Assembly (NCBI GenBank): GCA_021805985.1
Contig: JAJZDN010000030.1
Coordinates: 1-45,014, forward strand
Origin: Planctomycetota bacterium
GTDB taxonomy: Bacteria; Planctomycetota; Phycisphaerae; WQYP01
Length of the DNA: 45,014 nt
Direction of reading: 5' to 3'
The translations under genes were made by a program, and so were the position numbers. The notes beneath the pieces are model-generated. The model did not search any database and was not told where the DNA came from. It was given only the letters and a program-made list of their open reading frames with translations. Positions 19,182 through 45,014 of this stretch are shown here, piece by piece; position 1 is the first letter of the stretch, and every line of letters begins with the position of its first letter.

Positions 19182-19185
19182 ACCC

Positions 19186-20391: not shown

Positions 20392-21080
20392 CGCGAGTGA
20401 ATATTGTTGTCGAAGGGCAGACTGAGGAAACGTTCGTCAAGGATGTGCTCGCACCGGCCCTTGGATACCAGGGAGTATACCTGAAACCACGCCTGCTTGG
20501 TACGTCCGGCCATCGGGGCGGTAACGTGAATTACGCCCGCGTAGAGAGGGATGTTACCGCATTACTTAAACAGGACAGGCAGGCTTATTGCACAACGCTC
20601 ATTGACCTGTACGGTTTGGGAAGTGGCTTCCCGGAGAGCGTCCCGATCTCAATCGGAATCCCCAGCCGCCCCGAACCCGGTAGGGCATCGCAAATCGAAC
20701 AGGCGGTAAAGAACGATATTATCTCCACGCTTGGCGACAATTGGCGCGCTGATATTCGGTTCATCCCGTATATCCAGCAGTACGAATTCGAAGGCTTGCT
20801 TTTCAGCAGTCCGGTGGCACTGGCACAGGGCATATCCCAGCCGCAACTGGCGAAACAATTCCGGGATATTCGCGAAGAATTTAACACACCTGAGGATATT
20901 AACGACAGCCCGCACACCGCACCATCGAAACGGATATTGCAAATTCATCGGCCTTATCAGAAGCTGCTCCACGGTGTCCTTGCCGCCAAGGCAATGGGCC
21001 TTGCAACCATTCGACGCGAATGTCCGCGATTTAATGCGTGGATTTCCCGCCTGGAAGCATTAGGCACGGGAGGTGCGTGA
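20388..21080 (+). CDS. DUF4276 protein, TOPRIM-like partner of the ATPase
   Basis: A 230-residue protein with the marks of DUF4276: IVVEGQTEETFV at residues 5-16, LIDLYGLGSGFPE near 68-80, and YIQQYEFEGLLFSS near 125-138. The VEGxTE start is reminiscent of the acidic TOPRIM motif of OLD-family and primase/topoisomerase enzymes, and conserved acidic residues follow in the second and third blocks; the nuclease reading is an inference and not established for this protein. It overlaps the ATPase gene upstream by four bases and the Res gene downstream by one base (TGATG), so it is firmly inside the operon and not a separate insertion in transcriptional terms. Confidence 0.82.
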   Translation: MTRVNIVVEGQTEETFVKDVLAPALGYQGVYLKPRLLGTSGHRGGNVNYARVERDVTALLKQDRQAYCTTLIDLYGLGSGFPESVPISIGIPSRPEPGRASQIEQAVKNDIISTLGDNWRADIRFIPYIQQYEFEGLLFSSPVALAQGISQPQLAKQFRDIREEFNTPEDINDSPHTAPSKRILQIHRPYQKLLHGVLAAKAMGLATIRRECPRFNAWISRLEALGTGGA

Positions 21081-24000
21081 TGGCAAAATCAAAATCATCT
21101 CGATCCGGAATGGCCACGCTTTACCCCGAAGCCGTGCCCATCCGCTTTGAGCAGAAATTGGTGCTGCTGCAATGGATGCTAAGTCTGTTTGATAAGACGA
21201 GTTTCGAGCAGCTTGCCGAACGGCTTAAAGTCCCCGAACTGGAAGGCCTGACGGAAGATAATAACCATAAGTTCTTGCAGGCGATGAGAAACTTGTGGGA
21301 GTTTCCGGAATTCCCCGGCGACACATTGCTGGGCTATGACCAGAACATCGTCAAACATTCCATGGCACTGAACCAGAGACGGGAAACACCCGTCCGCTGG
21401 AAGTATTTTCAATGGCTCACGCTGCTGTTTGCCGAGGTTTATCTGGACCGCTTTTTCCGCAACCCGGAGAAGCTGCTGATAGACCTTAATGGTTTCGTCG
21501 TACAGTTTAACGCCGACAAACTGGAAAAAGACCGTATCCCCGCATATGAGGCCGCCGATCTGCGAAAGCTGGCTTTCTGGAATGCCACCGGCAGCGGAAA
21601 AACACTGTTGATGCACATCAATATTCTGCAATACCGCCATTATCTTGGCTTGTACGGGCAGGAAAAGGAACTGAACCGGATTATTCTGCTCACGCCCAAT
21701 GAGGGGCTTTCGCGGCAACATCTGGTGGAATTCCGCGCCGCAGGCATGGAGGCGGAACTGTTTAATAAGGACGGAGGCTCACTTTTTTCGGGCAAGACCA
21801 TTGAAATTATCGATATTCACAAGCTGCGTGAAGACAGCGGGGAAAAAACAGTCGCCATCGACGCCTTTGAATCCAACAATCTGGTATTGGTGGATGAAGG
21901 CCATCGCGGCTCCAGCGGCAAGGAAACAGGCCGCTGGATGGATGCCCGGCGGCGGCTTTGTGAAAACGGGTTTTCGTTTGAATATTCCGCGACGTTCGGC
22001 CAGGCGATGAAGGTCAGCGGCAACCGTGATCTGGAAAAAGAATACGCCAAGTGCATTCTGTTCGACTACTCCTACAAATATTTCTATCGGGACGGCTTTG
22101 GAAAAGACTACCGAATTTTGAATTTGGCTGATGATTCCGATGATGAGAAACGGACGCTTTATTTGACCGCGTGTCTGCTGGCGTTTTATCAGCAGCAGCG
22201 GCTATATCGGGACAAGGCCGGTGAGTTCCGAGCCTTTTTGCTGGAAAACCCATTGTGGGTGTTTGTGGGCGGCAGCGTCAATGCGGTTCGGTCAGACAAT
22301 AAACGCAAGGTTTCCGATGTGGTGGATATTCTGTTGTTTCTGGCGGAATTTGTCAGGGAAAGACCACGGACGGTCCACTTGCTGGATCGTTTGCTGGGCG
22401 GCAGGCCGGGGTTGCTGGATCAGCGGGGAAATGAAATTTTCGCCACCGCTTTCGGCTATTTAAGTAAATGCCGGATGACCGGGGCGGAGGCATTTGATGA
22501 TATCCTGAAGTTGCTGTTCAATTCGCCCGCACAGGCGTTGCTGCACGTTGAGAACCTTACAGGCACGGATGGGGAAATTGCCCTGCGGCTGGGAGAAAAC
22601 GAACCATTCGGACTTATCAACGTCGGAGATGCCACCGCATTGTGCAAATTGTGCGAGGAGCATTCTAAACATCTGGTAGTGGCCAGCAAAGATTTTTCCG
22701 GCTCGCTGTTTTCCGCGCTTGATAAACCGGATTCCACGGTCAATGTGCTGATCGGATCGAAAAAGTTCACCGAAGGTTGGAATAGCTGGCGGGTCAGCAC
22801 AATGGGCCTGATGAATGTCGGTAAAAGCGAAGGTTCGGAGATTATTCAGTTGTTCGGTCGCGGTGTGCGGCTCAAGGGTCTGGGCATGAGCCTTAAACGC
22901 AGCGGCAAGATTACTGGTATCACCTGTCCCGATAAGATCGAATTACTGGAAACACTGAATATCTTCGGTATCCGGGCACAGTACATGCAGCAATTCAAGG
23001 AATATCTGGAAGATGAGGGGCTGCCCGCCAACGAGGATCGCATTGAATTTATCCTGCCGGTGGTGAAGAACCTTGATGGCAAAAAGCTGAAAAGTATTCG
23101 CCTGAAGGCTGGCCTGGACTTCAAACGGGACGGCCCCAAGCCGATGCTGACCGCCGCCAATGCCGACCAACCCGTAGATGCCCACCTTTTAAGGTATCCG
23201 TTATTGCTGAACTGGTATCCGAAAATTCAAGCCCAGCAGAGCCGGGGGCTGGACCGTTTGGAGGAAACTGCGAATTTACAGGAGGGACATCTGGAATCCC
23301 GCCATCTGGCCTTCATGGATATGGACCGGATTTATTTTGAATTACAGGACTTTAAGAATGAACGGGCGTGGTTTAACTTAAACGTGCCGCGCGAAAGTAT
23401 TCCCAAGCTGTTGGAGCGTTCAGATTGGTACAAACTGTACATTCCCGCCGCCGAGTTGGAATTTACCCGCTTTGATCGCGTGCGGCACTGGGAAGAGATT
23501 GCGACCGCCCTGCTGAAGAAATACAGTGATCGCCTGTATAAGCTCCGCAGGCAGGAATGGGAAGCCGACCATCAGGAGTACCATGAACTGGCCGAAGGCG
23601 ATCCGAATTTTATCAACGAATATCGGCTCATGGTTGAACAGTCGGCGGACGACATTGTAGCGAAACTTGACGAACTCAAGGAAATGATTTCTTCCAAACA
23701 GTTTACGGATTGGTCTTTCCGGAACCTTGAAGCGTTATGTTTCGGCCAGCACCTGTATCAGCCGCTGCTGCATTTCAGAAACGATCTGGTGGAGGTTACG
23801 CCAGTAACGCTCAATGACGGAGAAATGGAATTTGTTCGCGATCTGCGTAAGTTCTTTAATGAAAAGCAGGACTCGTTCAAAAACCGCGAAATGTATCTGC
23901 TGCGCAACATGAGCCGGGGACGTGGCATCGGCTTTTTCGAGGCGGGGAACTTCTACCCCGATTTCATTCTCTGGCTGCTCGTGGACAGCAAGCAGTACGT

Positions 24001-24289
24001 GACCTTCGTCGATCCCAAGGGATTGCGGAATCTGGACGGCATGGACGATCCAAAGATACGCTTCCACAAGACAATCAAGGAATTGGAAAACCGGCTGGGT
24101 GATCCGAGCATTATTTTGAATTCATTTATCATTTCCAACACCCCGTCGAAGGTGGTGAGTTGGTGGAAGAGCAGTGCGAAGTCCGAACTGGAAAAATGTC
24201 ACGTTTTGTTTCAGGACGAAGACAAAACTACGTATATTGAGAAGATGCTCACGGCGGTTGTGGGGTATGGTGGCGATTCGCTTCAATGA
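21080..24289 (+). CDS. Type III restriction-like Res subunit (helicase-nuclease)
   Basis: A 1069-residue protein with a superfamily 2 helicase core: Walker A FWNATGSGKTLLMH (about 165-178), motif II VLVDEGHRGSSG (DEGH, about 269), motif III SATFGQ (about 307), and late motifs TEGWNSWRVS (about 562) and IIQLFGRGVRLKG (about 588). Near the C-terminus FYPDFILWLL (about 956) and VTFVDPKGL (about 974) fit the PD...(D/E)xK pattern of a restriction endonuclease domain, as in type III Res. The start overlaps the DUF4276 stop and has GGGAGG upstream. With the methyltransferase it forms a type III-like pair, but the two are separated by the ATPase-DUF4276 pair, and a SNF2 helicase is added. Confidence 0.88.
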   Translation: MAKSKSSRSGMATLYPEAVPIRFEQKLVLLQWMLSLFDKTSFEQLAERLKVPELEGLTEDNNHKFLQAMRNLWEFPEFPGDTLLGYDQNIVKHSMALNQRRETPVRWKYFQWLTLLFAEVYLDRFFRNPEKLLIDLNGFVVQFNADKLEKDRIPAYEAADLRKLAFWNATGSGKTLLMHINILQYRHYLGLYGQEKELNRIILLTPNEGLSRQHLVEFRAAGMEAELFNKDGGSLFSGKTIEIIDIHKLREDSGEKTVAIDAFESNNLVLVDEGHRGSSGKETGRWMDARRRLCENGFSFEYSATFGQAMKVSGNRDLEKEYAKCILFDYSYKYFYRDGFGKDYRILNLADDSDDEKRTLYLTACLLAFYQQQRLYRDKAGEFRAFLLENPLWVFVGGSVNAVRSDNKRKVSDVVDILLFLAEFVRERPRTVHLLDRLLGGRPGLLDQRGNEIFATAFGYLSKCRMTGAEAFDDILKLLFNSPAQALLHVENLTGTDGEIALRLGENEPFGLINVGDATALCKLCEEHSKHLVVASKDFSGSLFSALDKPDSTVNVLIGSKKFTEGWNSWRVSTMGLMNVGKSEGSEIIQLFGRGVRLKGLGMSLKRSGKITGITCPDKIELLETLNIFGIRAQYMQQFKEYLEDEGLPANEDRIEFILPVVKNLDGKKLKSIRLKAGLDFKRDGPKPMLTAANADQPVDAHLLRYPLLLNWYPKIQAQQSRGLDRLEETANLQEGHLESRHLAFMDMDRIYFELQDFKNERAWFNLNVPRESIPKLLERSDWYKLYIPAAELEFTRFDRVRHWEEIATALLKKYSDRLYKLRRQEWEADHQEYHELAEGDPNFINEYRLMVEQSADDIVAKLDELKEMISSKQFTDWSFRNLEALCFGQHLYQPLLHFRNDLVEVTPVTLNDGEMEFVRDLRKFFNEKQDSFKNREMYLLRNMSRGRGIGFFEAGNFYPDFILWLLVDSKQYVTFVDPKGLRNLDGMDDPKIRFHKTIKELENRLGDPSIILNSFIISNTPSKVVSWWKSSAKSELEKCHVLFQDEDKTTYIEKMLTAVVGYGGDSLQ

Positions 24290-24359
24290 TCTACGCGACG
24301 CAGGCGCATAATGAATAATAAAAATGGACGACGTGGGTGCGATTCGAGTCCCGAGAACC

Positions 24360-24377
24360 TTACAGGTTCCCCTGTGA
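24360..24377. terminator. Hairpin between the two convergent defence operons
   Basis: TTACAGG (24360-24366) and CCTGTGA (24371-24377) pair over a TTCC loop, with one wobble. It lies in the 109 bp between the Res stop and the KTSC stop, where both operons converge. No T run is visible, so its role as a bidirectional terminator is a guess. Confidence 0.3.
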
Positions 24378-24398
24378 ACGCATCCTGCGGTATGCCGT

Positions 24399-24608
24399 TC
24401 AGAGTTTGGTGAAAGGATATTTGTTTTTGATGTTAGCGCCGAAGTATTTACCTTTTGATGCGGCGTTGATCAGTGCGTCGTATTCCTCCTGCGGAACACC
24501 GTGATACTGGTAGATTGAGCCGGTGGTGAACTCCACCTCGAGCGTTGAAGTGCTCGGGTCGTAGCCAATCGCACGGATATTACTTGAACTGACTGATACA
24601 CGTTCCAT
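24399..24608 (-). CDS. KTSC-domain small protein
   Basis: A 69-residue protein that is almost entirely a KTSC domain: it starts MERVSVSSSNIRAIGYD, continues with LEVEFTTGSIYQYHGVP and ends with the domain-naming pattern around INAASKGKYFGANIK (here AASKGKYF in place of the usual K-[ST]-x-G core) and NKYPFTKL. The second ATG (24608) is preferred since GAGG lies eight bases before it and family members begin at that point; it is eight bases after the HerA stop. KTSC domains occur alone or fused to lysyl-tRNA synthetase or nucleases, and their function is not settled. Here it is the last gene of the leftward operon. Confidence 0.8.
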   Translation of the reverse strand: MERVSVSSSNIRAIGYDPSTSTLEVEFTTGSIYQYHGVPQEEYDALINAASKGKYFGANIKNKYPFTKL

Positions 24609-24616
24609 AATAAACC

Positions 24617-26557
24617 TCATTTCTTTTCTGTTGCGGCACCCTTGGCCGTGTTATCCAAGACGGAGTGTGCTGCGAGTGCGTCCCGCTCGCGCCAACACCT
24701 AATTATTGTAGCGTAATCCTCATCGATTGAACAGTCTGTCCAACCGCCGCCGTGCTCAGGTTTTCCATCTAACCCTGTCGGAACAACAACCTTTGGGTCG
24801 TCGCTGTCTGGCCTGAGCGCTACCGGCAGCGGCTCAATCAATGCCCGGATGGGCAGGCCAACCGCCTCTCCAACGACGAGAGCCTCGCCGGTGCGCAATG
24901 TAGGAAGCATAGCAAAGAGTCCTTCAAGGTTGTCCGAAGCGCAAGATCGAATCTGTGACCGATCTGTCTCATTTGTAAGGCGCATAGCAATCAGGGTTCC
25001 GCACTGCGAGAGGATCGTGGGATCGATCTCCGATGGCCGCTGGCTCACGAGCATAAGGCCGACACCGTATTTGCGGCCTTCCTTCGCAATGCGCCTCACG
25101 GCGGCGGCCGCGCGGCTTTTTGCTTGTGTTGACAAATAGGTATGGGCTTCCTCTAACACTATTAGTAGTGGCCGCGTTCGCGATCCGGCCGGGACGGCGC
25201 GTCCCCAAAACATCGCATCATAGATAATTCTCAGAACTGCCCCCACTAGGTCATCCAAGATACTCGGCGGAATTCCCGAAAGGTCGAGAACGGATATGGG
25301 CTTATCTTTTCCAATCCATTCTTGCAAAAGCTCGTCCAGGTCCCGATCTGTTGAACCGTCCTCTTTCACACTCCATGTACCAGGCCGAAAGAGGAAATCG
25401 AGCCGTTTATCGCGAAGCTTTCCTTCCAGTGTATCGGTCTGAGCCCGCGTCAGCGTTTCAGAGATGCCTTTGTATACCTTGTCTTTATCACTCTCTTCGT
25501 TCTTTGTCGGGCGGAACCGGGGGCGCTTAACCGACATTGCGTCTCCGGGCTGTACTGGCTTTCCATCGTTGCCGATTTCGTATGCCATTGTTGCGTCGGA
25601 TTGGTTGCCGCTGGGCTTTGTGGTATGCGTTGCGTACTGCAGGCAATGAACGTCAAACCATAACTTGTGTATGCAAAACGGCAACGGTGTATCAGCTGTG
25701 ATGTCATCTGGCTGGAGCGGACAGGCTGCTCCTGCTGGCTTCGCCGAGCGTTTCATGGTAGTCACCATTTCGAGGAAGTATGCGAGTGCAGGGCCGGAAA
25801 GTTGGCCCGTCGTGGTGCTCATGAGTTCCTCCGAACTGAGCGCCCAAAATGGCACGTATAGCGGGCGTTCACCGCGTGCCATATCTGCGTTGATTCGGAA
25901 GACCCTGGCTCGTCCGTTGAAGGCCTTCGCATACTCGCCATGCAGATCTAACAGGATTATTCTGGAGGATGGAAAGTCTGCGGAGTCGGCGAGCGAGTGC
26001 AGTAGGCTGGCAACGGTTGTAGATTTTCCAGCGCCGGTGCTACCAACGACGGCAGAGTGTCGTGCGACGATCTTGTTCAAGTCTATATACGCGGGGATTG
26101 ACCGGGCGCTAGCAACCTTGCCAATGGCGACGTAGGATCGCATGTCGCCCGGCGCGTATATTGCCGCGAGATCAGATTCGGTTACTACATGGGCGGCGTC
26201 ACCGATGGACGGATATTGTGAAATCCCACGCTCGAATTTTCCTTGATGCCCGGCTTCGCCGACTAGCTCGATCCGCAGCCAACGATCTCCGAAGGACGGT
26301 GCCGATTCCGGAGGCCCAGGGGCAGCTCCTGCTCCCACCTGCGAGACCACGCCATAAAGGTTAACGTACCCAGCGGGAATGCGCACGAAGCTCCCCACTT
26401 GCCCGACACGGTATCCTTCGCCCCGAACGAACACCAAGCCCGTTGCGGTTCCCTCATCGAGTTTGACGCGCACACTGGGACCCGCCACATCTTCGACCGT
26501 GCCCAGCCGCGTGGGGTTAGCGGACCGTTGCGCGGAGCCATCAGCTATCCTTGACAC
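24617..26557 (-). CDS. herA: HerA-type hexameric ATPase/helicase
   Basis: A 646-residue FtsK/HerA-superfamily DNA translocase. The GTG at 26557 is chosen because GGAGG lies nine bases upstream and it overlaps the SIR2 stop by 17 bases; longer in-frame starts would lie deep inside the SIR2 gene. Seen: an N-terminal beta-barrel-like region (LGTVEDVAGPSVRVKL), Walker A AVVGSTGAGKSTTVASLL at about 180-197, the strand IILLDLHGEYAKAF, Walker B LLIVLEEAHTYLS near 475, and a following GVGLMLVSQRPSEID motif. HerA with an upstream SIR2 partner is a known antiphage pair (SIR2-HerA, also called Nezha), in which both assemble into a large NAD-depleting complex. The remaining operon members here are extra. 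Confidence 0.88.
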   Translation of the reverse strand: MSRIADGSAQRSANPTRLGTVEDVAGPSVRVKLDEGTATGLVFVRGEGYRVGQVGSFVRIPAGYVNLYGVVSQVGAGAAPGPPESAPSFGDRWLRIELVGEAGHQGKFERGISQYPSIGDAAHVVTESDLAAIYAPGDMRSYVAIGKVASARSIPAYIDLNKIVARHSAVVGSTGAGKSTTVASLLHSLADSADFPSSRIILLDLHGEYAKAFNGRARVFRINADMARGERPLYVPFWALSSEELMSTTTGQLSGPALAYFLEMVTTMKRSAKPAGAACPLQPDDITADTPLPFCIHKLWFDVHCLQYATHTTKPSGNQSDATMAYEIGNDGKPVQPGDAMSVKRPRFRPTKNEESDKDKVYKGISETLTRAQTDTLEGKLRDKRLDFLFRPGTWSVKEDGSTDRDLDELLQEWIGKDKPISVLDLSGIPPSILDDLVGAVLRIIYDAMFWGRAVPAGSRTRPLLIVLEEAHTYLSTQAKSRAAAAVRRIAKEGRKYGVGLMLVSQRPSEIDPTILSQCGTLIAMRLTNETDRSQIRSCASDNLEGLFAMLPTLRTGEALVVGEAVGLPIRALIEPLPVALRPDSDDPKVVVPTGLDGKPEHGGGWTDCSIDEDYATIIRCWRERDALAAHSVLDNTAKGAATEKK

Positions 26558-27824
26558 AGGATTGCGCCTCCAAAAGCAAGCCGAGATGGTGAAAATTGCC
26601 AAGTCTGCATGATCCGCCGATAGTTTTTTCGGCGGCTGGACTTTCAATTGGTTGGCCCGTGCCGGGAATGCGGCCTTGGGGTTGCCCTGTTCCTTCTGCG
26701 GGCCTATAGCTTCCCTGCCGGGCACCAATCACTGCTCCATCCGTGGCCAAAAGTGTGAGATTTGGGTTCTTCGCAGCATGCGAGACTGCCACCGTACAAT
26801 CCTCAAGTTTTGGGAACATGAGTGCAAAGCAATGAGCAGAATGGTTCCCCCTGAGGCCGTCAATGAGTACTTCGTTGAGGTGCTGGTCCGCAAAAGAGTA
26901 TCCGCAAATTATTAACATCGAGTCTGGCTCGCGAAAGAACGACCGCAACCGATCGAGCATTGCAAGATAGGGCATTCTCCGGCTCTGATCGTACTTAAGA
27001 TGAGACGGGTATATCAAAAGCTGCTGATCCGCTTTCACGGGGTAGCATCTGAATACGCTGTCGTCTGTTCGCTTTACCCAGTTAATCGCCCCATGGAGTT
27101 TCCATAGTCGCACCCAGCGGGATGGGATTGCGTCTTGCTCCATCGCCGAAAGGTCGAAGAAGGGCTCGCGAGCACCAACGAAGCCGTCGAAGAATGGCAC
27201 CCTCTCCGATTCCAGTGCCTGTTCCATAAGAAGGTCGTAATTTGGTGTAAATACTTCAACCGCATGCACCCGGCTCAGGCGGCCTATCCAAGCCGCGAAT
27301 CGGCGATAAGCATTCGGGTAGTTGGGCAGTTGTTTGTCAACCTCGCTTGCTATGAGTTCACATATTCTGGATTCCAGGTACTTCAGTTCTTCACTGCTCA
27401 TATCGCCAAAGTGCGGGTTTCCCTTGAGGGCTAATATTGTGCGAAGTTGTGTCAGGATGTGCTCGACAGTCGGCGCCCCAACAACGCCCCCCGTGCAGTC
27501 TTTACAGAGTTTCGACCAGCAGTCCTTGAGGCCGCTCTCCCGTTCCAGCCCTTCCTCAACCTTCTTTGTCAGACCAGCAACATCTGGGATAAGGCAGGCA
27601 CTCTCTTCTCCGGCCTCGTCGTATACGCCTAGCGGGCATCCTGCTCCGAGAAAAAATCCAAGCCGCCGTTTCTCCGTTTGGAGCGCCTCGCGGAGTAAGT
27701 TTATTTGGCTGGTCGCGTCGTGCAAAACCCCAGTGGATCCGACAACGGCGAGGTCCGCGGGCCGGGGCGTCGGAACGCTAGTCGGTGCTGTCGCGTCTGC
27801 TTTATGGACTGTCGCCCTATCCAT
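26541..27824 (-). CDS. SIR2-family NADase-like effector
   Basis: A 427-residue protein of the SIR2_2 type. Seen: the NAD-binding start LGFFLGAGCPLGVYDEAG at about 55-72, the Asn-Tyr-Asp motif EVFTPNYDLLMEQALE near 190, the catalytic-type His in LWKLHGAINWVK near 246, and the late SIR2 block SMLIICGYSFADQHLNEVL near 302. The first 35 residues are Ala/Pro-rich. The ATG at 27824 has GGGAGGGG upstream and overlaps the DUF2130 stop; the 3' end overlaps HerA. In known SIR2-HerA systems the SIR2 part depletes NAD on infection, leading to growth arrest or death of the infected cell; that role is transferred here by homology. Confidence 0.87.
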   Translation of the reverse strand: MDRATVHKADATAPTSVPTPRPADLAVVGSTGVLHDATSQINLLREALQTEKRRLGFFLGAGCPLGVYDEAGEESACLIPDVAGLTKKVEEGLERESGLKDCWSKLCKDCTGGVVGAPTVEHILTQLRTILALKGNPHFGDMSSEELKYLESRICELIASEVDKQLPNYPNAYRRFAAWIGRLSRVHAVEVFTPNYDLLMEQALESERVPFFDGFVGAREPFFDLSAMEQDAIPSRWVRLWKLHGAINWVKRTDDSVFRCYPVKADQQLLIYPSHLKYDQSRRMPYLAMLDRLRSFFREPDSMLIICGYSFADQHLNEVLIDGLRGNHSAHCFALMFPKLEDCTVAVSHAAKNPNLTLLATDGAVIGARQGSYRPAEGTGQPQGRIPGTGQPIESPAAEKTIGGSCRLGNFHHLGLLLEAQSCVKDS

Positions 27825-29106
27825 TTTCCACCCCTCCCAGCATCTTCACATCCAACCCCTCAATTTCCTTGAGGCTTTTCCCGGCAATGCCCTGCAAGTC
27901 GCCGTACATGCCAACCGTGGCCTGCATCACACGTTCAATTTGTGATTCTCTTTTCGCCCATTGTTTGGTAATTGCCTTTTTCTCGGCGTTCAGATCCTCC
28001 TGCATGGACGTGAATGCTTCCACAATGGCTCCCACACGCTGGCGGAAATGCGGGCCGGTCAAATAATCGTAGACCATGCCCATTTTGGTCTGCTGGCCTT
28101 CACCCGCTTGCCGGGCGCCGGCAAGTTCCATCAGCGATTGCCGCAGTGCCATGGCTACGGGCAACGCACAGGCCATTGATGTAACCCATACGCCATCAGT
28201 GAATTCGAACGTTTCCACCCCGTCCGGCAAAACCTTGGAAACGATCACCGCAACTTCCGCCTTGGCGGTCCGCTGATCATCGCGCAATTTCGCGAGCCAG
28301 CCATCACTCCAGTTTTTGGTGCGTTTAGCTTCCCAAAGAATCGTGCCGCAGGCCTGCCCGCCGGAACTGAAAACACGGTGCAGCACATCGCCGCCGAATT
28401 CGCCCTTGGGCACCGGTTCAATGGTGTCGCGTGGGAATTTGCTGCGAAGCGTACTTTCCAAATTCAATTCCTGCACTTCGCCCTGTAATTGCTGGGAACC
28501 CTGTTCTGCCTTCTGTTTAAGTTCCTCAATTTTCTTTTGCATAGAAGTAATCGTATGCTCTTTTTCCGTCAGACTAAGCCTCAGGCCCTCTTCCGCTTCC
28601 TTGCGGGCCTTGTCGCGAACCTGCCCCAAACTCGCCTGCACCTGCTTTTCAATGTTCAGTTCCATTTCCCGTTTGGCATCAGCCAACTCCCTTTCCTTGC
28701 GGATCAGGTCCGCCTGGGCTTTTTGTGCTTCGGCCAGCTTGGCATCGCGCTCTTTCATCACCGCCTGCAGATTGGTGATTTCATCAGTCTTTTGCTTGAG
28801 TTCATTGGATAGCAGCAACTTGGCCTTTTTCGCCTCTTCAGCGGCAATGGCTGTGCGTTGGCTCTCCAGTTTGGCGGTTACCTGCTCATCAATGGAAGCC
28901 CGCGCCGCAGCGACCGCCGCCTCTTTTTCCCGAATCGCAGTTTCCCGTTTGGCAACCTCGGAATTATTGCGTGCGATCTTTTCCTCCAATTCACTGCGCA
29001 CCGCCGCAACCAAAGGCGCAGCAAGCGATTCGGTGAGCTTAATCTCGGTGCCACATGTCGGACAGATAATGGTCGGTTCAGCCACAAGCAATTTCCCGGA
29101 ACACAT
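27817..29106 (-). CDS. DUF2130 coiled-coil protein with predicted nuclease fold
   Basis: A protein of 429 residues (ATG 29106) or 422 residues (GTG 29085, where the family motif AEPTIICPTCGTEIKLTESL begins). Seen: a CPTCG half zinc ribbon, a long Ala/Glu/Lys-rich coiled coil over about residues 35-215, and a C-terminal domain with GGDVLHRVF followed by GTILWEAKRTKNWSDGWL near 258-275. The Asp then Glu-x-Lys spacing is that of PD-(D/E)xK nucleases, a prediction made for DUF2130. It overlaps SIR2 by eight bases and so heads the leftward operon. A DNA-cutting or DNA-sensing subunit for the SIR2-HerA complex is inferred; the family also occurs outside such loci. Confidence 0.82.
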   Translation of the reverse strand: MCSGKLLVAEPTIICPTCGTEIKLTESLAAPLVAAVRSELEEKIARNNSEVAKRETAIREKEAAVAAARASIDEQVTAKLESQRTAIAAEEAKKAKLLLSNELKQKTDEITNLQAVMKERDAKLAEAQKAQADLIRKERELADAKREMELNIEKQVQASLGQVRDKARKEAEEGLRLSLTEKEHTITSMQKKIEELKQKAEQGSQQLQGEVQELNLESTLRSKFPRDTIEPVPKGEFGGDVLHRVFSSGGQACGTILWEAKRTKNWSDGWLAKLRDDQRTAKAEVAVIVSKVLPDGVETFEFTDGVWVTSMACALPVAMALRQSLMELAGARQAGEGQQTKMGMVYDYLTGPHFRQRVGAIVEAFTSMQEDLNAEKKAITKQWAKRESQIERVMQATVGMYGDLQGIAGKSLKEIEGLDVKMLGGVENG

Positions 29107-37922: not shown

Positions 37923-39449
37923 ATGGATGAAAGTATGAATAACATCACAAACGAAATCATTGAACCGCGCACCGGCGCGGACGATGCGCGGCCGGAATCT
38001 GGCCACGGCGACACGGATGCGGGAGTTTCAACAAACCACTTGGACTCCCCATCCGCCGCAGAGGCATCGCCGGCGGCTTCCGGAACCAATTTGCCAACCG
38101 AATCGTCGGTGCGCACTCAAGGACAATTCAATGATCCCGCAAATGGTTCCACTGGAAATTCTCCAGATCAGACGCCGTATCAGGTGTCGGATGAAAAATT
38201 CGATGGCCAGACAGTGGTGCGTATGCACACGCCGCAACCAAGGGTAACGCGGTTAAAACCCAGGGCGGTCATGCTGATACTGCTGGCCACCGCAGGCGCG
38301 GTGGGCACCGCGCTGGTCATTGGTCTGGGCGGTACGCCATCGGTTCCACAGGTACAAAGGCGGCCATCTTCCAATAGTGCTGTACAGCCGTCCAGCGAGA
38401 TGGCCGACAACAACGCTCTTGTGAGAACGTTACCGCAGACGTACACCTGGCCACAAGCGGATAACCATGCCGCTGCTACGGTTTCAGGCCATTCTGCAAC
38501 ACCAGCCAGGAACTCATCCCGGTCTTCCGTGTCCCAATCCAAATCGACCACCGCACCTGATCGGCAGCGGATGCGTCAATTAAAATCCTTGCAACGCCAG
38601 TGGCGTAAGGCGATGAATGCCCCGGTGGTTTTTGCCGGTATGGCTGACAATGCGTATAACACTGGCGGCACGGGAACGCCGCCGATGGCGAATTCATCCT
38701 CGCTGGGGGCAAGTAATGGTCTGATCGCTGCTGACGGTGTTATTCCACCGGGTATGCCAACACCCGATGGCAATTCAAGCCATGGCGACCAAGGCACGGC
38801 AATTCAACAGGAGCACCGGGCCTTTATGAAATCATCCGCTTCGGTTCAATCCTATCTGGCCCAACCGTTGACGCCGCCGGCATCCCCCTATGAAATTCAG
38901 GCCGGCACCGTGATCCCCGGCGCTCTCGTGACAGGTATCAACAGTGACTTGCCGGGCCAGATCATCGGCACGGTGACGCAAAACGTCTTTGATTCCGTTA
39001 CTGGCAAATATCTGCTCATACCACAGGGATCGCGGTTATTAGGCCGCTACAGCAGTGTGGTGGGCAATGGTGAAAACCGAGTATTGGTGGCTTGGCAGAG
39101 GTTGATACTGCCCAATGGCGATTCGATTGTGCTTGATGCCATGCCGGGTACAAACCAGGAAGGTCAATCGGGCCTGCATGATCAGGTAAATTACCACTTT
39201 GCCAAACTCGCCCAGGCCGCAGCCTTAAGTACCGCCATCGCTTACGGTGGCAATCTGGCCATTAATCCCAACAGCACCTCCACCAATCAGGATGTGGTGG
39301 GCAATACGATTGCCCAGGAAGGTTCCCAGATCGGGCAGAAGATTATTGACCGGCAACTCAACGTGCAGCCGACTATCACGATTCGGCCCGGCTGGCCGTT
39401 TCGTGTCCTGGTGAACCAGGACATGCGCTTAAAGCCGTACCGACCTTGA
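37923..39449 (+). CDS. trbI: Conjugal transfer protein TrbI (VirB10-like)
   Basis: A 508-residue channel protein that spans both membranes. The ATG at 37923 is chosen since GAGAGG lies seven bases upstream; an earlier in-frame ATG has no such site. Seen: a cytoplasmic Asp/Ser-rich start, one membrane segment (about 116-137), a Pro/Ser-rich periplasmic linker, and the VirB10/TrbI C-terminal domain (IQAGTVIPGALVTGINSDLPGQI near 320, KYLLIPQGSRLLGRYSS near 360, and RPGWPFRVLVNQDM at the end). It is the last intact trb gene; the following DUF2274-type gene is interrupted. Confidence 0.9.
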   Translation: MDESMNNITNEIIEPRTGADDARPESGHGDTDAGVSTNHLDSPSAAEASPAASGTNLPTESSVRTQGQFNDPANGSTGNSPDQTPYQVSDEKFDGQTVVRMHTPQPRVTRLKPRAVMLILLATAGAVGTALVIGLGGTPSVPQVQRRPSSNSAVQPSSEMADNNALVRTLPQTYTWPQADNHAAATVSGHSATPARNSSRSSVSQSKSTTAPDRQRMRQLKSLQRQWRKAMNAPVVFAGMADNAYNTGGTGTPPMANSSSLGASNGLIAADGVIPPGMPTPDGNSSHGDQGTAIQQEHRAFMKSSASVQSYLAQPLTPPASPYEIQAGTVIPGALVTGINSDLPGQIIGTVTQNVFDSVTGKYLLIPQGSRLLGRYSSVVGNGENRVLVAWQRLILPNGDSIVLDAMPGTNQEGQSGLHDQVNYHFAKLAQAAALSTAIAYGGNLAINPNSTSTNQDVVGNTIAQEGSQIGQKIIDRQLNVQPTITIRPGWPFRVLVNQDMRLKPYRP

Positions 39450-39535
39450 GGCCCTTAATGAACGTTAAAGCATTCGTCGGAAAAACCGAAACTTCGGACA
39501 AGACAGACTATTATGAACGAAAAGGAGAACACCCC

Positions 39536-39592
39536 GTGACTGAAATCTCATTGCCGGCATTTCACCATACGGCGACGACATATGTAGCGTAG
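39536..39592 (+). pseudogene. 5' remnant of a DUF2274-type gene split by the RIT element
   Basis: A GTG start with GGAG eight bases upstream opens TEISLPAFHHTATT, matching the start of the DUF2274-like proteins at 39727 and 43841 (both contain PAFH or APFHVTT). The frame then enters the terminal repeat of the RIT element and stops after a few codons. Joining it to the right-hand remnant at 43997 restores the family spacing (24 residues from Phe-His to Leu-Tyr) to within one codon. DUF2274-like genes normally follow trbI. Confidence 0.7.
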
Positions 39593-39608
39593 ACGGTTAT
39601 GTGGTGTG
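39578..39608 (+). repeat. Left terminal inverted repeat of the RIT element
   Basis: Begins ACATATGTAGCGTAGA and ends GGTTATGTGGTGTG with one variable base between (C here, T in the right copy). It matches the reverse complement of 43938-43968 at 30 of 31 positions and contains one TTATGTGG motif. Confidence 0.9.
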
Positions 39609-39726
39609 TGGCAAACGTATTACATGCTGGCCGCAATATGATGCACCAGTTATACAACATAATTTCACATGAGATCGGCCTACTTGGCGGAGCCAGTCAA
39701 TTGTTTATTTTCAACGGAGGCTACCA

Positions 39727-40041
39727 ATGATTGCGTTGCCAGCTTTCCACGTAACCACCCTGCGTGTGGTCCAAACGCGATTGCCACACGGACTTGCAGA
39801 AGACCTCACCTTGTACCGCATGTTCTACAAGCAAACGTACGGTGCCGAAGTATCGGAGGCTGATTTAATGCGCGAGATTCTGCGTGCGTTTATCGAAGGT
39901 GATGAAACTTTTCGGCAATTCAAGCGTGTAGCAAGAGGCTGCAACCGCTCCAAGCGGTTACGTCAAGCGAACCTTATGCCAAACGCTTCCTCGAAGGATA
40001 GCGCCGTTCATGATGTTGCTGCACCTCCCGGCGCTCCATAA
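39727..40041 (+). CDS. DUF2274-like protein inside the RIT element, left copy
   Basis: A 104-residue protein of the same family as the interrupted host gene: PAFHVTT at the start, LAEDLTLYRMFYKQTYGAEV in the middle, then DLMREILRAFIEGDETFRQFK. GGAGG lies six bases upstream of the ATG. It stands about 120 bp inside the left terminal repeat and just before ritA, in the same direction. The family has no known function; many members follow trbI in conjugative elements. Its regular presence at the ends of this element, together with the right copy, suggests either an accessory RIT gene (perhaps a small DNA-binding protein) or a captured target gene. Confidence 0.65.
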   Translation: MIALPAFHVTTLRVVQTRLPHGLAEDLTLYRMFYKQTYGAEVSEADLMREILRAFIEGDETFRQFKRVARGCNRSKRLRQANLMPNASSKDSAVHDVAAPPGAP

Positions 40042-40073
40042 AGAGTGGAAGGTGGCAGTTGTGGAGGTTGGCG

Positions 40074-41468
40074 GTGTTTGAATACGAGCAGTACGTTCAG
40101 AGTCCACGGGGGGCGGTTCTTCATCGCCAGGGACCCTATGCAGCCGAGCGGGATCGCTATCTCACACACCTTGCTGCCGAGGGGCGGGCTGTCAGTACGA
40201 TGCGGCTAATTATGGGGCAGTTGCGATTCGCGGCGAAGCATCTTGACCTTGCTGATGGCCACTTGCTGAATCAGCGCCAAGTCGCGCGGCAACTTCGCAA
40301 GCCGTGGCTGCCCCGGCCGCTCGCCCACCCACACACCCTTGGCAACCGTGAACGTGGATGGCGGTTGTTCATGACTCATGTGACTGATTGGCTGCGGTTC
40401 ATCGGACGATTCCGGGAGCCGTCGGTGACACCACCGGCCTTCGAGCGCTATATACGTGAGTACACGACGTTCCACCGTCAGGAAAAAGGCTTCACGAACG
40501 CAACACTGGTAGGCCAATGCCAGACTATTCATGCGTTCTTTCAGCACCTTACCGCGTCGCATCGCTCCCTGTCGGCGGTAACCGAAGCAGATACCGCATC
40601 CTTCCTTGCTGCGGGAAAAGCTCGTGGCTGGAGAGTCGTGTCTCAACGCGATGCGGCGCAAAACCTGCGCAGCTTCCTCCGATTTGCCGCCCAGCGCAAT
40701 TGGTGTCCGTCGCATCTTTCGGAAGCGATTCACCTTCCGCGAGTCTATCGACATGCAACACTGCCTTTGGGACCGCGTTGGAATCAAGTCCGTCAGTTGA
40801 TCGCCTCTACCCGCGGTTCCAGCCCCAAGAGCATACGTGATCGGGCGATGATCCTGTTGCTGGCAGTGTATGGATTCCGTGTCGGAGAAGTCGCAGCGCT
40901 ACGTTTGGAGGACATAGACTGGCAGACGAATGTTATTCGGCTTCGGCGTTCCAAGTGTCACCGGCCCGGTATATATCCACTGACAGAGCCGGTCGGTCAG
41001 GCGATTCTGCGATATCTTCAGCGGGTTCGGCCGACGACGTGCCCACACCGTACTCTGTTTATCTCCAGGCTCCAGCCGTTTCGGCCGGTCAACTCCAATG
41101 CCATTACGGCCATCGTGCGTCAACGGCAGCAGCAGCTTGGGCAGAAACTCACACGCTACGGTGCCCATGGGCTTCGTCATGCCTGTGCGACGCATCTTCT
41201 GGCTGAGGGATTTACGTTCAAGCAGATCGGCGACCAACTTGGTCACACGAGCTCGGCGGCGACCGGCATCTATGCCAAAGTGGATTTGGCCGGATTACGG
41301 GAAGTGGCGGCGATCGATATCAAGGAGTTGGTACGACACGACCGTGCATGTGCGGATCGGGAGGCTGGGCTATGGCCGAGACGGAGCGTGGAGGCGCTGC
41401 GGGAAGTGGCCGATGTTACGCTTCGGCGATTGCTTCCATACGCCGCACCGTTTGGGACACGAAGATGA
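40074..41468 (+). CDS. ritA: Tyrosine recombinase RitA
   Basis: A 464-residue tyrosine recombinase, first of the trio. The GTG at 40074 is favoured because GGAGG lies six bases upstream. Seen: an N-terminal core-binding region (YLTHLAAEGRAVSTMRLI), the first catalytic Arg in LAVYGFRVGEVAALRLEDIDW near 268, the His-x-x-Arg motif YGAHGLRHACATHLLAEG near 364, and LGHTSSAATGIYAKVDL near 391 with the nucleophilic Tyr. All catalytic residues appear intact. It is separated from ritB by 18 bp. Confidence 0.88.
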   Translation: MFEYEQYVQSPRGAVLHRQGPYAAERDRYLTHLAAEGRAVSTMRLIMGQLRFAAKHLDLADGHLLNQRQVARQLRKPWLPRPLAHPHTLGNRERGWRLFMTHVTDWLRFIGRFREPSVTPPAFERYIREYTTFHRQEKGFTNATLVGQCQTIHAFFQHLTASHRSLSAVTEADTASFLAAGKARGWRVVSQRDAAQNLRSFLRFAAQRNWCPSHLSEAIHLPRVYRHATLPLGPRWNQVRQLIASTRGSSPKSIRDRAMILLLAVYGFRVGEVAALRLEDIDWQTNVIRLRRSKCHRPGIYPLTEPVGQAILRYLQRVRPTTCPHRTLFISRLQPFRPVNSNAITAIVRQRQQQLGQKLTRYGAHGLRHACATHLLAEGFTFKQIGDQLGHTSSAATGIYAKVDLAGLREVAAIDIKELVRHDRACADREAGLWPRRSVEALREVADVTLRRLLPYAAPFGTRR

Positions 41469-41486
41469 CGCCATGAGGATCTGACC

Positions 41487-42476
41487 ATGAAGAAGCAAGC
41501 TGCGGTTCCTCGATTGCTCGAAGCAGTCAGGGAATACATACGCCATCGTCGAGATCAAGGCTTGGCCTTCCGCAAGGAAACGGACCGCTTGGGGTGGCTT
41601 CTCAGGACGTTAGGTGATGTGCCGCTGGATACGGTTACCGCCGAAGGGATTCAACGTTATTTACAAGGAAATGGCCCCGCGACCAAATACTGGCGATTCA
41701 AGCGTCGGACGATTGAGTCATTTTACCGCTTTTTGATTCGTCAAGGATATGTGACGCGTTCGCCGCTGGCGGATGTTGCACCACCGGTTCTGGCCCGCAT
41801 GGAGCCGTATATCTACACAGTAGAGGAGGTCAAGCGGCTGCTGACGGCGGTTGATTTATGCCACAAGGATGTGTGGGTAATTGAGCCGCAGACGCTGCGA
41901 ATGCTGATTTTGTTGTTGTATGGAACCGGCATGCGGATCGGCGAAGCGATCAAGATGAAGCTATCCGATGCCGACTTGGCGGCGGGGGTCTTGACCGTGC
42001 GCGCGACCAAATTCAACAAGACTCGGTTGGTGCCGCTGGGCAAGGATCTTCTGGGCGTATTGCGGCGGTACCGCGCCGACATGGCCAAGCGGTGGCCATG
42101 CGGCGATGGTGCACCGTTGTTGGTTGACCGTCGTGGGCTGCCTTTACCACGACAGACGTGTGAAAAATCCTTCCGCACTCTCTGTGAGCATGTTGGAGTT
42201 GTCCGGAAACCCGCCACGGCGTACGAACAACCGCGTCTCCATGACTTCCGGCACACCTTCGCTGTCAATCGTGTGGTAACCTGGTATCGGGAAGGGAAGA
42301 ACGTGCAACGGCTGCTGCCGCATCTCTCGACGTATTTGGGGCACTACGACGTGGGCGATACGCAACGTTATTTGAGCATGACCGCCGACCTGTTAGCCGA
42401 GGCCGGAGACCGATTCCGCCGGTATGCCGAAGTGGAAAAGAAAACGCGAGGTAAGGATGTTCAAAAGAAGAAATAG
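41487..42476 (+). CDS. ritB: Tyrosine recombinase RitB
   Basis: A 329-residue tyrosine recombinase, second of the trio. Seen: REYIRHRRDQGLAFRKETDR (SAM-like DNA-binding region), the first catalytic Arg in LYGTGMRIGEAIKMKLSD near 151, RLHDFRHTFAVNRVV near 250 (His-x-x-Arg), and YLGHYDVGDTQRYLSMT near 285 (His and Tyr). GAGG stands eight bases before the ATG. Its end overlaps the probable ritC start. Confidence 0.88.
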   Translation: MKKQAAVPRLLEAVREYIRHRRDQGLAFRKETDRLGWLLRTLGDVPLDTVTAEGIQRYLQGNGPATKYWRFKRRTIESFYRFLIRQGYVTRSPLADVAPPVLARMEPYIYTVEEVKRLLTAVDLCHKDVWVIEPQTLRMLILLLYGTGMRIGEAIKMKLSDADLAAGVLTVRATKFNKTRLVPLGKDLLGVLRRYRADMAKRWPCGDGAPLLVDRRGLPLPRQTCEKSFRTLCEHVGVVRKPATAYEQPRLHDFRHTFAVNRVVTWYREGKNVQRLLPHLSTYLGHYDVGDTQRYLSMTADLLAEAGDRFRRYAEVEKKTRGKDVQKKK

Positions 42477-43515
42477 ATTAGATAAAATTCCGGTCGGTGC
42501 GGCCTCCGGCGTGGAACTGGGACCGATCCTGTTGGGTTATTGGATTCGAAGATTCCTATTGGAACACTTGGTATCCGACCGAAATCTCGCCCGAAACACA
42601 CAACGCAGTTACCGGGACACGTTCAGGTTGCTTCTGCCATTCGTGGCTGGCCAAACGAAGCGGGCGGTAGACAAACTGTGCGTCACGGACATCTCGCACG
42701 ACGTTATACGAAGATTCCTCGTCCACATCGAAGGAGTGCGAGGTTGCTCTTCCCGGACACGAAATCAGCGTTTAGCTTCGATTCATGCACTGGCCAAGTT
42801 CATTGCCGGTAATGCGCCCGAGTTTATTGGATGGGCCGCCGACGTGAGGGGAATTCCATTCAAACGGTTTGAACGGCCAGCCCTTTGTTATCTGGAAAAG
42901 CCGGAGATGGACGCGCTGCTGGCCGCTCCGAAACAGAATACGCCGCAAGGACGGCGCGATCATGCGCTGCTATTGTTCCTGTACAACGCTGGAGCACGGG
43001 CCAGCGAGGCCGCTGGCGTAATGATGGCCGATCTGACGTTCCATCCGGATGGATCGGGATCGGTGCGACTGCTTGGGAAGGGGGCCAAGGTCCGGTACTG
43101 TCCCTTGTGGCCGACGACAATGGCGGCGCTGCGGCCTCTGGTGGCCACGGCGACGGCCGAACGGCATGTGTTTCTCAACCGACGCGGCCAGCCGATCACC
43201 CGATATGGCGTGCATGCCATGGTTAAACGACATGCACGCGATGTCGCCCAAAGAGTTCTATCGCTACGAAATAAACGCGTCAGTCCGCACACCATTAGGC
43301 ACACCACGGCGACACACCTGCTGCGTGCCGGCGTGGACATCAACACGATCCGCGCGTGGCTGGGGCATGTGTCGATCGATACGACCAACGTGTATGCCGA
43401 AGTCGACTTGGAAGCCAAGGCCGCGATGCTTGCGGCGTGTGAGCCAGCGGCCAAGAAGTCCAGGCGACAATGGAACGATGACCCAAACCTGATGGAGTTT
43501 CTTCGCGGTCTTTGA
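42457..43515 (+). CDS. ritC: Tyrosine recombinase RitC
   Basis: A 352-residue tyrosine recombinase, third of the trio. An ATG at 42457, inside the end of ritB, is preferred (MFKRRNRLDKIP); an earlier ATG at 42424 is possible. Seen: the core-binding block NLARNTQRSYRDTFRLLLPF, the first catalytic Arg in LYNAGARASEAAGVMMADL near 180, SPHTIRHTTATHLLRAG near 270 (His-x-x-Arg), and WLGHVSIDTTNVYAEVDL near 295 with the Tyr. The stop is 20 bp before the convergent DUF2274-like gene. Confidence 0.88.
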   Translation: MFKRRNRLDKIPVGAASGVELGPILLGYWIRRFLLEHLVSDRNLARNTQRSYRDTFRLLLPFVAGQTKRAVDKLCVTDISHDVIRRFLVHIEGVRGCSSRTRNQRLASIHALAKFIAGNAPEFIGWAADVRGIPFKRFERPALCYLEKPEMDALLAAPKQNTPQGRRDHALLLFLYNAGARASEAAGVMMADLTFHPDGSGSVRLLGKGAKVRYCPLWPTTMAALRPLVATATAERHVFLNRRGQPITRYGVHAMVKRHARDVAQRVLSLRNKRVSPHTIRHTTATHLLRAGVDINTIRAWLGHVSIDTTNVYAEVDLEAKAAMLAACEPAAKKSRRQWNDDPNLMEFLRGL

Positions 43516-43535
43516 ATATTGGCGGTGGGCAACGT

Positions 43536-43841
43536 TTAGCCGGACGATTGCGGCGAAGCATCGCCCCCGGATAAAACGGCTTTTGGCACGACCGCATCCT
43601 TCGCGTGGCCGCGTCGGCTCATCGGCTTTGACCGGGCTACTTCCTTATACCGGCGGAAGGCGTCGTCGTGATCGAGGAAGGCACGGATGATCTCCCGAAC
43701 CACATCTGATTCGGCGACCTCGGCTCCGTAGGTATCCTGATAGAGGCGACGGTACAAGTCCAAGTCTTGAGCTACAGGCGCGGGTAACTTGAGCTCAATT
43801 TTGCGAGGCGTTGTCACATGAAACGGTGCGAGTGCAATCAC
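43536..43841 (-). CDS. DUF2274-like protein inside the RIT element, right copy
   Basis: A 101-residue protein, paralogue of the left copy and of the interrupted host gene: LAPFHVTTPRKIELKLPAP, then AQDLDLYRRLYQDTYGAEV and DVVREIIRAFLDHDDAFRRYK. A GTG start at 43841 is chosen since GGAGG lies seven bases upstream and the product then begins like the left copy (VIALAPFH against MIALPAFH). It points inwards, about 95 bp from the right terminal repeat, convergent with ritC. Confidence 0.65.
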   Translation of the reverse strand: MIALAPFHVTTPRKIELKLPAPVAQDLDLYRRLYQDTYGAEVAESDVVREIIRAFLDHDDAFRRYKEVARSKPMSRRGHAKDAVVPKAVLSGGDASPQSSG

Positions 43842-43937
43842 GATAGACCTCCGAATGGCGGGACAAATCGGCAAAGTAAAACTTATGTGGCCAACTGTTG
43901 GATTAACAAGTCCGCTTAATCGCATCTGCGGTGTCAC

Positions 43938-43968
43938 CACACCACATAACCATCTACGCTACATATGT
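43938..43968 (-). repeat. Right terminal inverted repeat of the RIT element
   Basis: Reverse complement of the left repeat with one mismatch in 31 bp. It overlaps by two bases the 32-bp palindrome at 43967-43998. Confidence 0.9.
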
Positions 43969-43998
43969 TGTCTTATGTGGTCAACCACATAAGACAAC
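43967..43998. repeat. 32-bp palindrome at the right RIT end
   Basis: GTTGTCTTATGTGGT (43967-43981) and ACCACATAAGACAAC (43984-43998) are perfect inverted copies separated by CA. It contains two facing TTATGTGG motifs, the same motif found in both terminal repeats and at 43883-43890. Its position at the element-gene junction suits a recombinase core or crossover site. The left end has no such palindrome. Confidence 0.8.
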
Positions 43999-44263
43999 CC
44001 AGTGTAATATTAAAGTTGATTACCGTATGGGGCTGGATTTACAGCTTTACCGGCAATTCTACAAACAGGCCTACAACGCGGAGGTTGCCGATGCGGACTT
44101 GGTGCGTGAAATGGCCCGACGATTCATGGATTCGGATAGGGAGTTTCAAACGTTCAAGACCAGACTCGCCGCTGCCAACGTCCGCAAAGTATCAAAGATC
44201 AACTCTGCGAAGGACGTTAAAACTAGACCAACACTAAACGGTTCTGGGGCAGTGTCGTCATGA
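43997..44263 (+). pseudogene. 3' remnant of the DUF2274-type gene split by the RIT element
   Basis: The open frame reads TQCNIKVDYRMGLDLQLYRQ, then FYKQAYNAEV and DLVREMARRFMDSDREFQTFK, the body of a DUF2274-like protein, ending at TGA 44263. The N-terminal residues are at 39536-39580 on the other side of the element. A shorter frame from an ATG at 44029 (MGLDLQLY) could still be translated and would keep the conserved core. Confidence 0.7.
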
Positions 44264-44404
44264 CCGATGGACGATTAAATCATAATTGATTATTAGATCT
44301 GTGGCGTTTTAAAAACAAGAAAGATGCAGTGTGCATTTTCATGTTTATCGTTTCATCAAATTAAGTGACTTGTGTGGCCTCGGCAATTGTCCGTTAGTTC
44401 ATCA
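44264..44404. other. Gene-free spacer after the split DUF2274 gene
   Basis: About 140 bp of AT-rich sequence between the convergent DUF2274 remnant and the DUF6527 gene. I see no clear hairpin, promoter or repeat in it. Confidence 0.5.
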
Positions 44405-44764
44405 TCATTCTCGACCACACCATTCGATGAATCCCCGTCGCAAAAAGAAGTGACTGTGGCAGCCAACCTTCCGCCAAATCGACGGATGCAGAGAAATTGT
44501 ATTGTCACCATGCTCGTGAATCCGCCACTGTGGCTTGGCATCCGGCAATAAACTTATTTGTACTATTGCTCCGCATCCACATGGACAGATCATCGCCACG
44601 AACCACTTTTTTTCCCCTTCGCCCATCACATAGACGGTATCAGCGTCGAGCGTTTCAGGCAACTCTTCCAGATATACGGTGCGCAATCGCTTGGAAGTTC
44701 GTCTGTACCTTGAGACAAGCCGAATCCATATCCGTGAGACCACACCAGCAATAAATCTTATCAT
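44405..44764 (-). CDS. DUF6527 family protein of a ubiquitin-like conjugation locus
   Basis: A 119-residue protein with the DUF6527 pattern: MICPCGCGAIVQISLLPDA at about 59-77, a Trp-bearing strand PQWRIHEHG, SLHPSIWRKVGCHSHFFLRRG near 92-112 and a final FIEWC. Conserved Cys and His residues suggest a zinc site. DUF6527 genes are found next to ThiF/E1-like and E2-like genes and multi-ubiquitin domain proteins in predicted bacterial ubiquitin-like systems; the upstream gene here fits that. AAGGG lies 11 bases before the ATG, which is 14 bp after the E1-like stop. Its molecular role is not established; a peptidase or ligase-associated part is speculative. Confidence 0.8.
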   Translation of the reverse strand: MIRFIAGVVSRIWIRLVSRYRRTSKRLRTVYLEELPETLDADTVYVMGEGEKKWFVAMICPCGCGAIVQISLLPDAKPQWRIHEHGDNTISLHPSIWRKVGCHSHFFLRRGFIEWCGRE

Positions 44765-44778
44765 GCTATTTGCTACCC

Positions 44779-45014
44779 TTAGCTCAGTTCCGGCTTATCG
44801 AGCAATGGTGCGACATCGCCACGTCCGAGTTCTTTGCTAAGCACTATACAAGTCTGCATTTTCGATTCTGTTTCTTTAAACGTTAGGCCTTCGTGTAACC
44901 CAATACGCTGTGAGGCAAATTCCTCATTTGAGGGGATGCGGTAGCGATGGATTCTCGCCAGCAATTCATTGACCGCCATTGCCGCGACCAGCGTGTTGAC
45001 ACTGATGACGGCTG
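44779..45014 (-). CDS. ThiF/E1-like adenylyltransferase, C-terminal end (cut by window)
   Basis: The reading frame is open to the window edge, so the gene continues outside. The visible 77 residues start AVISVNTLVAAMAVNELLAR and continue with a helix-rich tail ending LLDKPELS. The VNTLVAAMAVNELLARIHRYR segment is the typical last helix of ThiF-family E1-like enzymes in bacterial ubiquitin-like loci, which adenylate the C-terminus of a ubiquitin-like protein and pass it on. The assignment rests on this short segment and on the DUF6527 neighbour. Confidence 0.65.
   Translation of the reverse strand, partial: AVISVNTLVAAMAVNELLARIHRYRIPSNEEFASQRIGLHEGLTFKETESKMQTCIVLSKELGRGDVAPLLDKPELS

Follow-up and report, generated by a model that had tools for sequence, protein, structure and literature searches.

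Gene content at the right end of the element

The window, which is the whole stretch of DNA analysed here (45,014 nt), is the entire contig C166 (JAJZDN010000030.1) of a 4.68 Mb Planctomycetota MAG with 197 contigs. Conjugation genes found within positions 5362-39449 encode TraG/VirD4 (T4SS-DNA_transf), a TrbB-like ATPase, TrbE, TrbL, TrbG (CagX), and TrbI. The features that matter for the locus at the right end are as follows:

13261-29106, first cargo cluster, between the TrbB-like and TrbE genes
39574-43972, plus strand, RIT-type element with 35-bp inverted repeats at 39574-39608 and 43938-43972
40059-41468, 41487-42476, and 42424-43515, three RIT tyrosine recombinases with Phage_integrase matches
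43973-44263, plus strand, 3' part of a DUF2274 gene, the last gene of the trb operon (PF10038, 6.4e-7)
44405-44764, minus strand, DUF6527 gene, BubE-like and last in its operon; complete ORF with ATG start, 119 aa
44779-45014, minus strand, 3' end (last 77 codons) of a JAB-ThiF fused E1 gene, BubCD-like, with the frame open to the contig end

The first cargo cluster contains a DrmD-like helicase, a type III methylase and restriction enzyme, a HEC-01A/B-like pair, and a SIR2 protein. The RIT element is inserted inside the DUF2274 gene (region 39536-44263), as seen by comparison with the empty site in a copy on contig C185 of the same genome, and has cut off the 5' end of this gene, which is intact on C185 and C62. 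The DUF2274 gene is convergent with the operon at the contig end and forms the flank of a cargo slot. The RIT element also has two DUF2274-like ORFs of its own (39727-40041, plus strand; 43536-43940, minus strand).

The product of 44405-44764 matched PF20137 with E = 9.4e-23 and 80 bits, far above the cut-off of 23.6, so that the DUF6527 assignment is not due to chance. The motif CPCGCG begins at residue 60 of the 119-aa protein and SIWRK..GCHSHF is also present, which bears out the first-pass annotation of a DUF6527 gene with these two patterns at exactly these coordinates. In an alignment of 89 homologues, P94, S95, H105, C60, C64, C102, and W80 were identical throughout, and C62 was kept in 87. 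This conservation points to Ser95 and His105 as a candidate catalytic dyad and to a likely metal site formed by Cys60, Cys62, Cys64, and Cys102. The PDB held no structure of DUF6527 (best profile match 0.09), and the AF2 model (pLDDT 86.6) gave no convincing fold match, with a best Foldseek value of 0.05 and a best VIA-align Z of 2.9. A protease activity of DUF6527 therefore leans on residue conservation and on the literature, according to which Bub operons reportedly include a Ser-His protease family.

Completion of the operon beyond the contig edge

By itself, the E1 fragment at 44779-45014 is too short to have a Pfam match, and it was assigned by 99% DNA identity to the last 236 bases of a 463-aa JAB-ThiF gene on C185. 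This contig carries a second copy of the element, 96–98% identical to that of the window, and the right-end 1 kb of the window recurs there at 96% identity. Additionally, the 6,484 bp of window positions 38531-45014, with the RIT variant, recur at 100% identity on contig JAKAEB010000070.1 (C93 of genome G024), from Planctomycetota bacterium WY1.bin118, a different MAG belonging to the same family. Past the window edge, this contig supplies what is missing of the E1 gene and then a Ubl-E2 gene, completing the operon. The genes beyond the edge are:

C185:37485-38876, minus strand, full JAB-ThiF E1 gene (463 aa) of the sister copy, from Pfam and DNA identity
JAKAEB010000070.1:1361-2752, plus strand, full JAB-ThiF E1 gene on the contig with 100% identity
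C185:38885-39733, minus strand, Ubl-E2 fusion gene with one Multi_ubiq and one Prok-E2_E domain, from Pfam
C185:39941-40380 (L008:19561-20000), plus strand, ECF-sigma-like gene, incomplete at the contig end and transcribed away from the Bub operon

On both contigs, the three genes follow the order Ubl-E2 fusion, JAB-E1, and DUF6527. When the window's genome was searched for the E1/E2 half missing from C166 as a stand-alone copy, the operon on C185 and another on C94, described below, were the only ones found. The first-pass annotation had read the end of a ThiF/E1-like gene before DUF6527 as the edge of an E1-E2-multiubiquitin locus and had predicted E2-like and ubiquitin-like genes past 45014. 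A complete JAB-E1 and its E2-like and Ubl partners indeed lie there, on C185 on the minus strand as predicted, but the multi-ubiquitin part of the description fell away, as the protein has a single Ubl domain fused to E2.

The Ubl-E2 fusion protein and its glycine boundary

The Ubl-E2 protein matched Multi_ubiq (PF14452, 3.3e-9) and Prok-E2_E (PF14462, 1e-32). The probable start of translation is the ATG 22 codons into the frame, after AGAAAGGA, giving 260 rather than 282 aa; Gly139 and Ser253 in the longer numbering are Gly117 and S231 in the shorter form. The AF2 model of the 260-aa form has two firm domains and a linker (residues 115–129) predicted to be disordered, with pLDDT under 50. Its E2 part matched BubB with E = 8.5e-12 and a target TM of 0.93, and its Ubl part matched BubA and multi-ubiquitin structures with E around 5e-4. 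No match to the Ubl-E2 protein was found in the phage collection.

Homologues of both architectures mark the same glycine. Unfused Ubl genes stop exactly at this residue, with a (D/P)xTEG-like end, in 38 of 46 cases, and have a short tail after EG in the other 8, while in 20 aligned fused Ubl-E2 proteins the boundary Gly is invariant and E2 begins within a few residues, the window family alone having a 17-residue linker in between. The PDB constructs of the Citrobacter proteins are divided at the same place, with BubA ending at Gly229 and BubB beginning at 230. Fused and unfused homologues thus independently mark the maturation glycine, predicting that the Ubl-E2 precursor of the window family must be cut there.

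Assignment to Bub

The operon belongs to a known kind, Bub (bacterial ubiquitination-like), listed as type 6e by Iyer et al. (2006). Matches of E1, E2, and Ubl to the solved Citrobacter Bub proteins sharpen the family to this kind. The E1, with Prok-JAB (PF14464) and ThiF (PF00899) domains at 1e-33, matched Citrobacter BubCD (PDB 9ea4) at 1.3e-68 over residues 5–462, with 35% identity over the full length. The E2 part matched BubB in the PDB at 6e-26, Bub structures being its sole matches, and the Ubl part matched the Citrobacter multi-ubiquitin protein BubA. The operon accordingly combines a ThiF-type E1 with a JAB domain, as in BubCD, a Prok-E2_E type E2 that lacks a catalytic Cys, a multi-ubiquitin-family Ubl whose C-terminal Gly is defined, and a last gene for DUF6527 with a conserved Ser-His pair. 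With PADLOC, the generic E1-E2 model matched the E1, and no model matched the Ubl-E2 or DUF6527 proteins.

The order Ubl-E2, JAB-E1, DUF6527 is shared with the Bub operons of Citrobacter and IncHI2 plasmids (PDB 9ea4, 9ea5, 9ea8, 9eae, 9eav; pOZ181). In contrast, the window family has one Ubl domain where Citrobacter Bub has three, and 17 residues between Gly and E2 where Citrobacter Bub has few. Upstream of Bub, pOZ181 has CapK-like and wHTH genes, whereas on C185 the divergent ECF-sigma-like gene is found instead, and no CapK and CapS genes were seen upstream of the window family's operon.

In the earlier survey, operons of type 6e, the fifth type, encode an E1 with JAB as its N-terminal part, a Ubl present once or in up to three repeats and in some cases joined to an E2 that lacks the Cys, and a small protein with metal-binding Cys and His residues; the Cys-less E2 was taken as inactive (Iyer, Burroughs and Aravind, 2006; PMC1779556). 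The window operon shares this layout, having a JAB-E1, a Cys-less E2 that carries the Ubl in the same chain, and a likely Cys/His metal-binding protein. Residue conservation was strong in both enzymes. The Ser-Arg-His of E2 was identical in 84 of 84 sequences, with no alignment column having Cys in more than 7 of the 84. In E1, the JAMM residues E26, H89, H91, S99, and D102 and the adenylation residues R235, K250, and D294 were kept in 80–81 of 81 sequences, none of which had a conserved Cys in the crossover region. C292, beside D294, was the only conserved Cys in the ThiF part, at a place that is not known to be catalytic in MoeB-type enzymes. More recent work reportedly assigns activity to the Cys-less E2 of Bub, unlike the earlier reading, and is said to ascribe oxyester chemistry to the system. 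Our alignments agree with this chemistry and with a Ser-His protease, without proving either.

Distribution of Bub-like loci

A DUF6527 profile made from the closer homologue set found 80 loci in genomes of many phyla and 3 in viral contigs. Ubl, E2, E1, and DUF6527 occurred together in 69 of these 83 loci and DUF6527 with E1 in another 9, several of the incomplete loci being located at contig ends. Among the genome loci, Ubl and E2 were separate genes in 46 and fused in 22. By parsimony on the E1 tree, the fused or split state switches at least six times, three of these switches being forced by well-supported branches, and the window's E1 forms its own long branch within a mostly split group, with weak support. 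Fusion of Ubl to E2 is thus, as judged from alignments and the tree, a recurrent state in which the predicted cut site is always retained.

The window's genome has a third Bub-like operon:

L051:7449-10914 (contig C94), Ubl, E2, JAB-E1, and DUF6527 genes in this order

While this operon resembles that of the window in gene order, it differs in its unfused Ubl, in an E1 with a CxxC metal site, and in its deep branch. Upstream lies a pair of XRE-like HTH and ImmA/IrrE genes resembling CapH and CapP.

Cargo slot and regulatory genes

In the sister element on C28 of the same genome, the trbI/DUF2274 flank is followed by CBASS (CD-NTase, bacHORMA, AAA, and DUF6602):

C28:18449-24177 (L012:8450-14178), CBASS cargo of the sister element, in the slot that holds Bub in the window's element
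C28, L012:8855-10813, minus strand, three-gene module transcribed away from CBASS (products of 249 aa and 148 aa, and an ImmA/IrrE peptidase), its first gene being the homologue of the sigma-like gene of C185

Given CBASS at the same flank, the trbI/DUF2274 slot is a second defence-type cargo site, in addition to the defence cluster at 13.2–29.1 kb. A second cargo site had been suggested from the position of the locus just beyond the trb/RIT region, and this suggestion is supported. Our results place a complete Bub operon on a Planctomycetota conjugative element, in a slot filled by CBASS in sister elements, and sharing this slot supports a defence-type role for the Bub pathway. We therefore consider it highly probable that the end of C166 is the distal part of a bubAB-bubCD-bubE operon, which a conjugative element of this Planctomycetota MAG carries as defence-type cargo just beyond its trb operon.

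Within the window's own family, the sigma-like gene alone is visible, at the C185 contig end. The profile of its family matched ECF sigma factors in the PDB at 1e-6, covering both sigma regions, and two family members fell just below the Pfam Sigma70_r2 cut-off. The full module of sigma, small helical protein, and ImmA/IrrE genes was found divergent to Bub in L076, L082, and L118, and also in the viral contig L147, where the match of the middle gene is weak. In L144 the module is found on the downstream side of Bub, and in G112 it neighbours a ThiF/DUF6527 operon; the ECF-sigma-like gene is also present at L153 and L162. On a plasmid of Cereibacter sphaeroides 2.4.1, the module is divergent to a nucleotidyltransferase/SAVED CBASS, and on several other plasmids it adjoins one or two small genes only. 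A match to the middle protein in G591 was rejected as spurious, judged by its neighbourhood.

Most Bub loci, 48 among the 65 tested, have ImmA/IrrE-type genes upstream that no sigma gene accompanies, in line with regulation by CapH and CapP. For the C185 gene, we tentatively suggest a different arrangement, possible though somewhat short of probable, in which it belongs to a mobile three-gene switch of sigma factor, small helical inhibitor, and ImmA/IrrE peptidase that drives Bub, CBASS, and other Ubl operons. The peptidase would free sigma and turn immunity on, as opposed to the destruction of a repressor by CapH and CapP. The literature searched, a partial collection, contained no description of such a sigma/ImmA-IrrE defence switch; if the suggestion is true, the module would add a new mechanism for the activation of bacterial immune operons.

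Role of the operon and alternative readings

Antiphage action is established for the related Bil and CBASS systems, but no such protection has been demonstrated for Bub operons (EMBO J, 2026; PMC13373217). The first-pass statement that some related types defend against phages hence holds for Bil and CBASS and does not extend to Bub itself. Since the authors of that study also left a global stress role open, the operon could instead encode a stress-response or housekeeping protein-modification system, acting for example on the element's transfer proteins. We regard this as rather unlikely in view of the defence-type cluster nearby in the same element, the CBASS that occupies the same slot in the sister element, and the CapP-kind ImmA/IrrE-type regulators upstream of most Bub loci.

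It is very improbable that the window's element copy holds a broken remnant consisting of DUF6527 and an E1 stub. C166 itself does stop with no more of the E1 gene than its final 77 codons, but JAKAEB010000070.1, with the same RIT variant, continues into intact E1 and Ubl-E2 genes. Furthermore, contig C14 of G024, which matches 9 kb of C185 at 100% identity, ends within E1, so that opposite element variants break inside E1 in the two MAGs, as expected if the assembler collapsed a near-identical repeat.

A Bil-type (BilA-D) or CBASS-type (Cap2/Cap3) defence locus is scarcely credible: while E1, E2, JAB, and Ubl parts are common to all, the E1 matches PADLOC E1-E2 models, and it weakly matches Cap2 structures (1.6e-4), Bub structures lead all other E1 matches by more than 50 orders of magnitude, the E2 part matches Bub structures only and, unlike the Bil E2 with its catalytic Cys, has no conserved Cys column, and, in contrast to the E2-E1 fused Cap2 beside a CD-NTase in type II CBASS, E1 is fused to JAB and E2 to Ubl, with no CD-NTase within the operon.

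Returning to Bub, gene content, gene order, domain identity, conserved residues, and the Gly boundary are directly established here, and they suggest how the operon could work. The precursor (one Ubl, the 17-residue linker, and E2) would first be cut after the Gly of ELTQGDG, freeing Ubl, with DUF6527 (Ser95/His105) or the JAB domain fused to E1 as candidate proteases. The ThiF-type E1 would then adenylate the C-terminal Gly of Ubl, using the conserved set of Arg235, Lys250, and Asp294. As neither the E1 crossover region nor E2 has a conserved Cys, we infer that Ubl may pass to E2 and on to target proteins through oxygen esters, the invariant Ser of WSRH being the candidate E2 nucleophile. Tags would finally be removed by the JAMM-type JAB domain, DUF6527, or both.

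The idea that DUF6527 is confined to operons whose Ubl needs trimming was rejected, since unfused Ubls ending at Gly are accompanied by DUF6527 too. Because many unfused Ubls stop exactly at Gly and yet DUF6527 is retained, DUF6527 is not solely a precursor-processing enzyme.

The two MAGs with 100% identical element segments of 6.5–9 kb (window positions 38531-45014; L008) are assigned to different genera. This identity may reflect recent transfer or shared or mis-binned contigs, and given the latter possibility, there is less certainty about the host species than about the sequence itself.

Pairs of DUF6527 and ThiF proteins were also observed at L153:8337-10186, L063:6744-9049, and L062:204-1812. 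No Prok-E2_E gene was found at the L153 and L063 loci, where a Ubl-like protein precedes the ThiF/DUF6527 pair; these two apparently represent a different, E2-less kind of Ubl operon.
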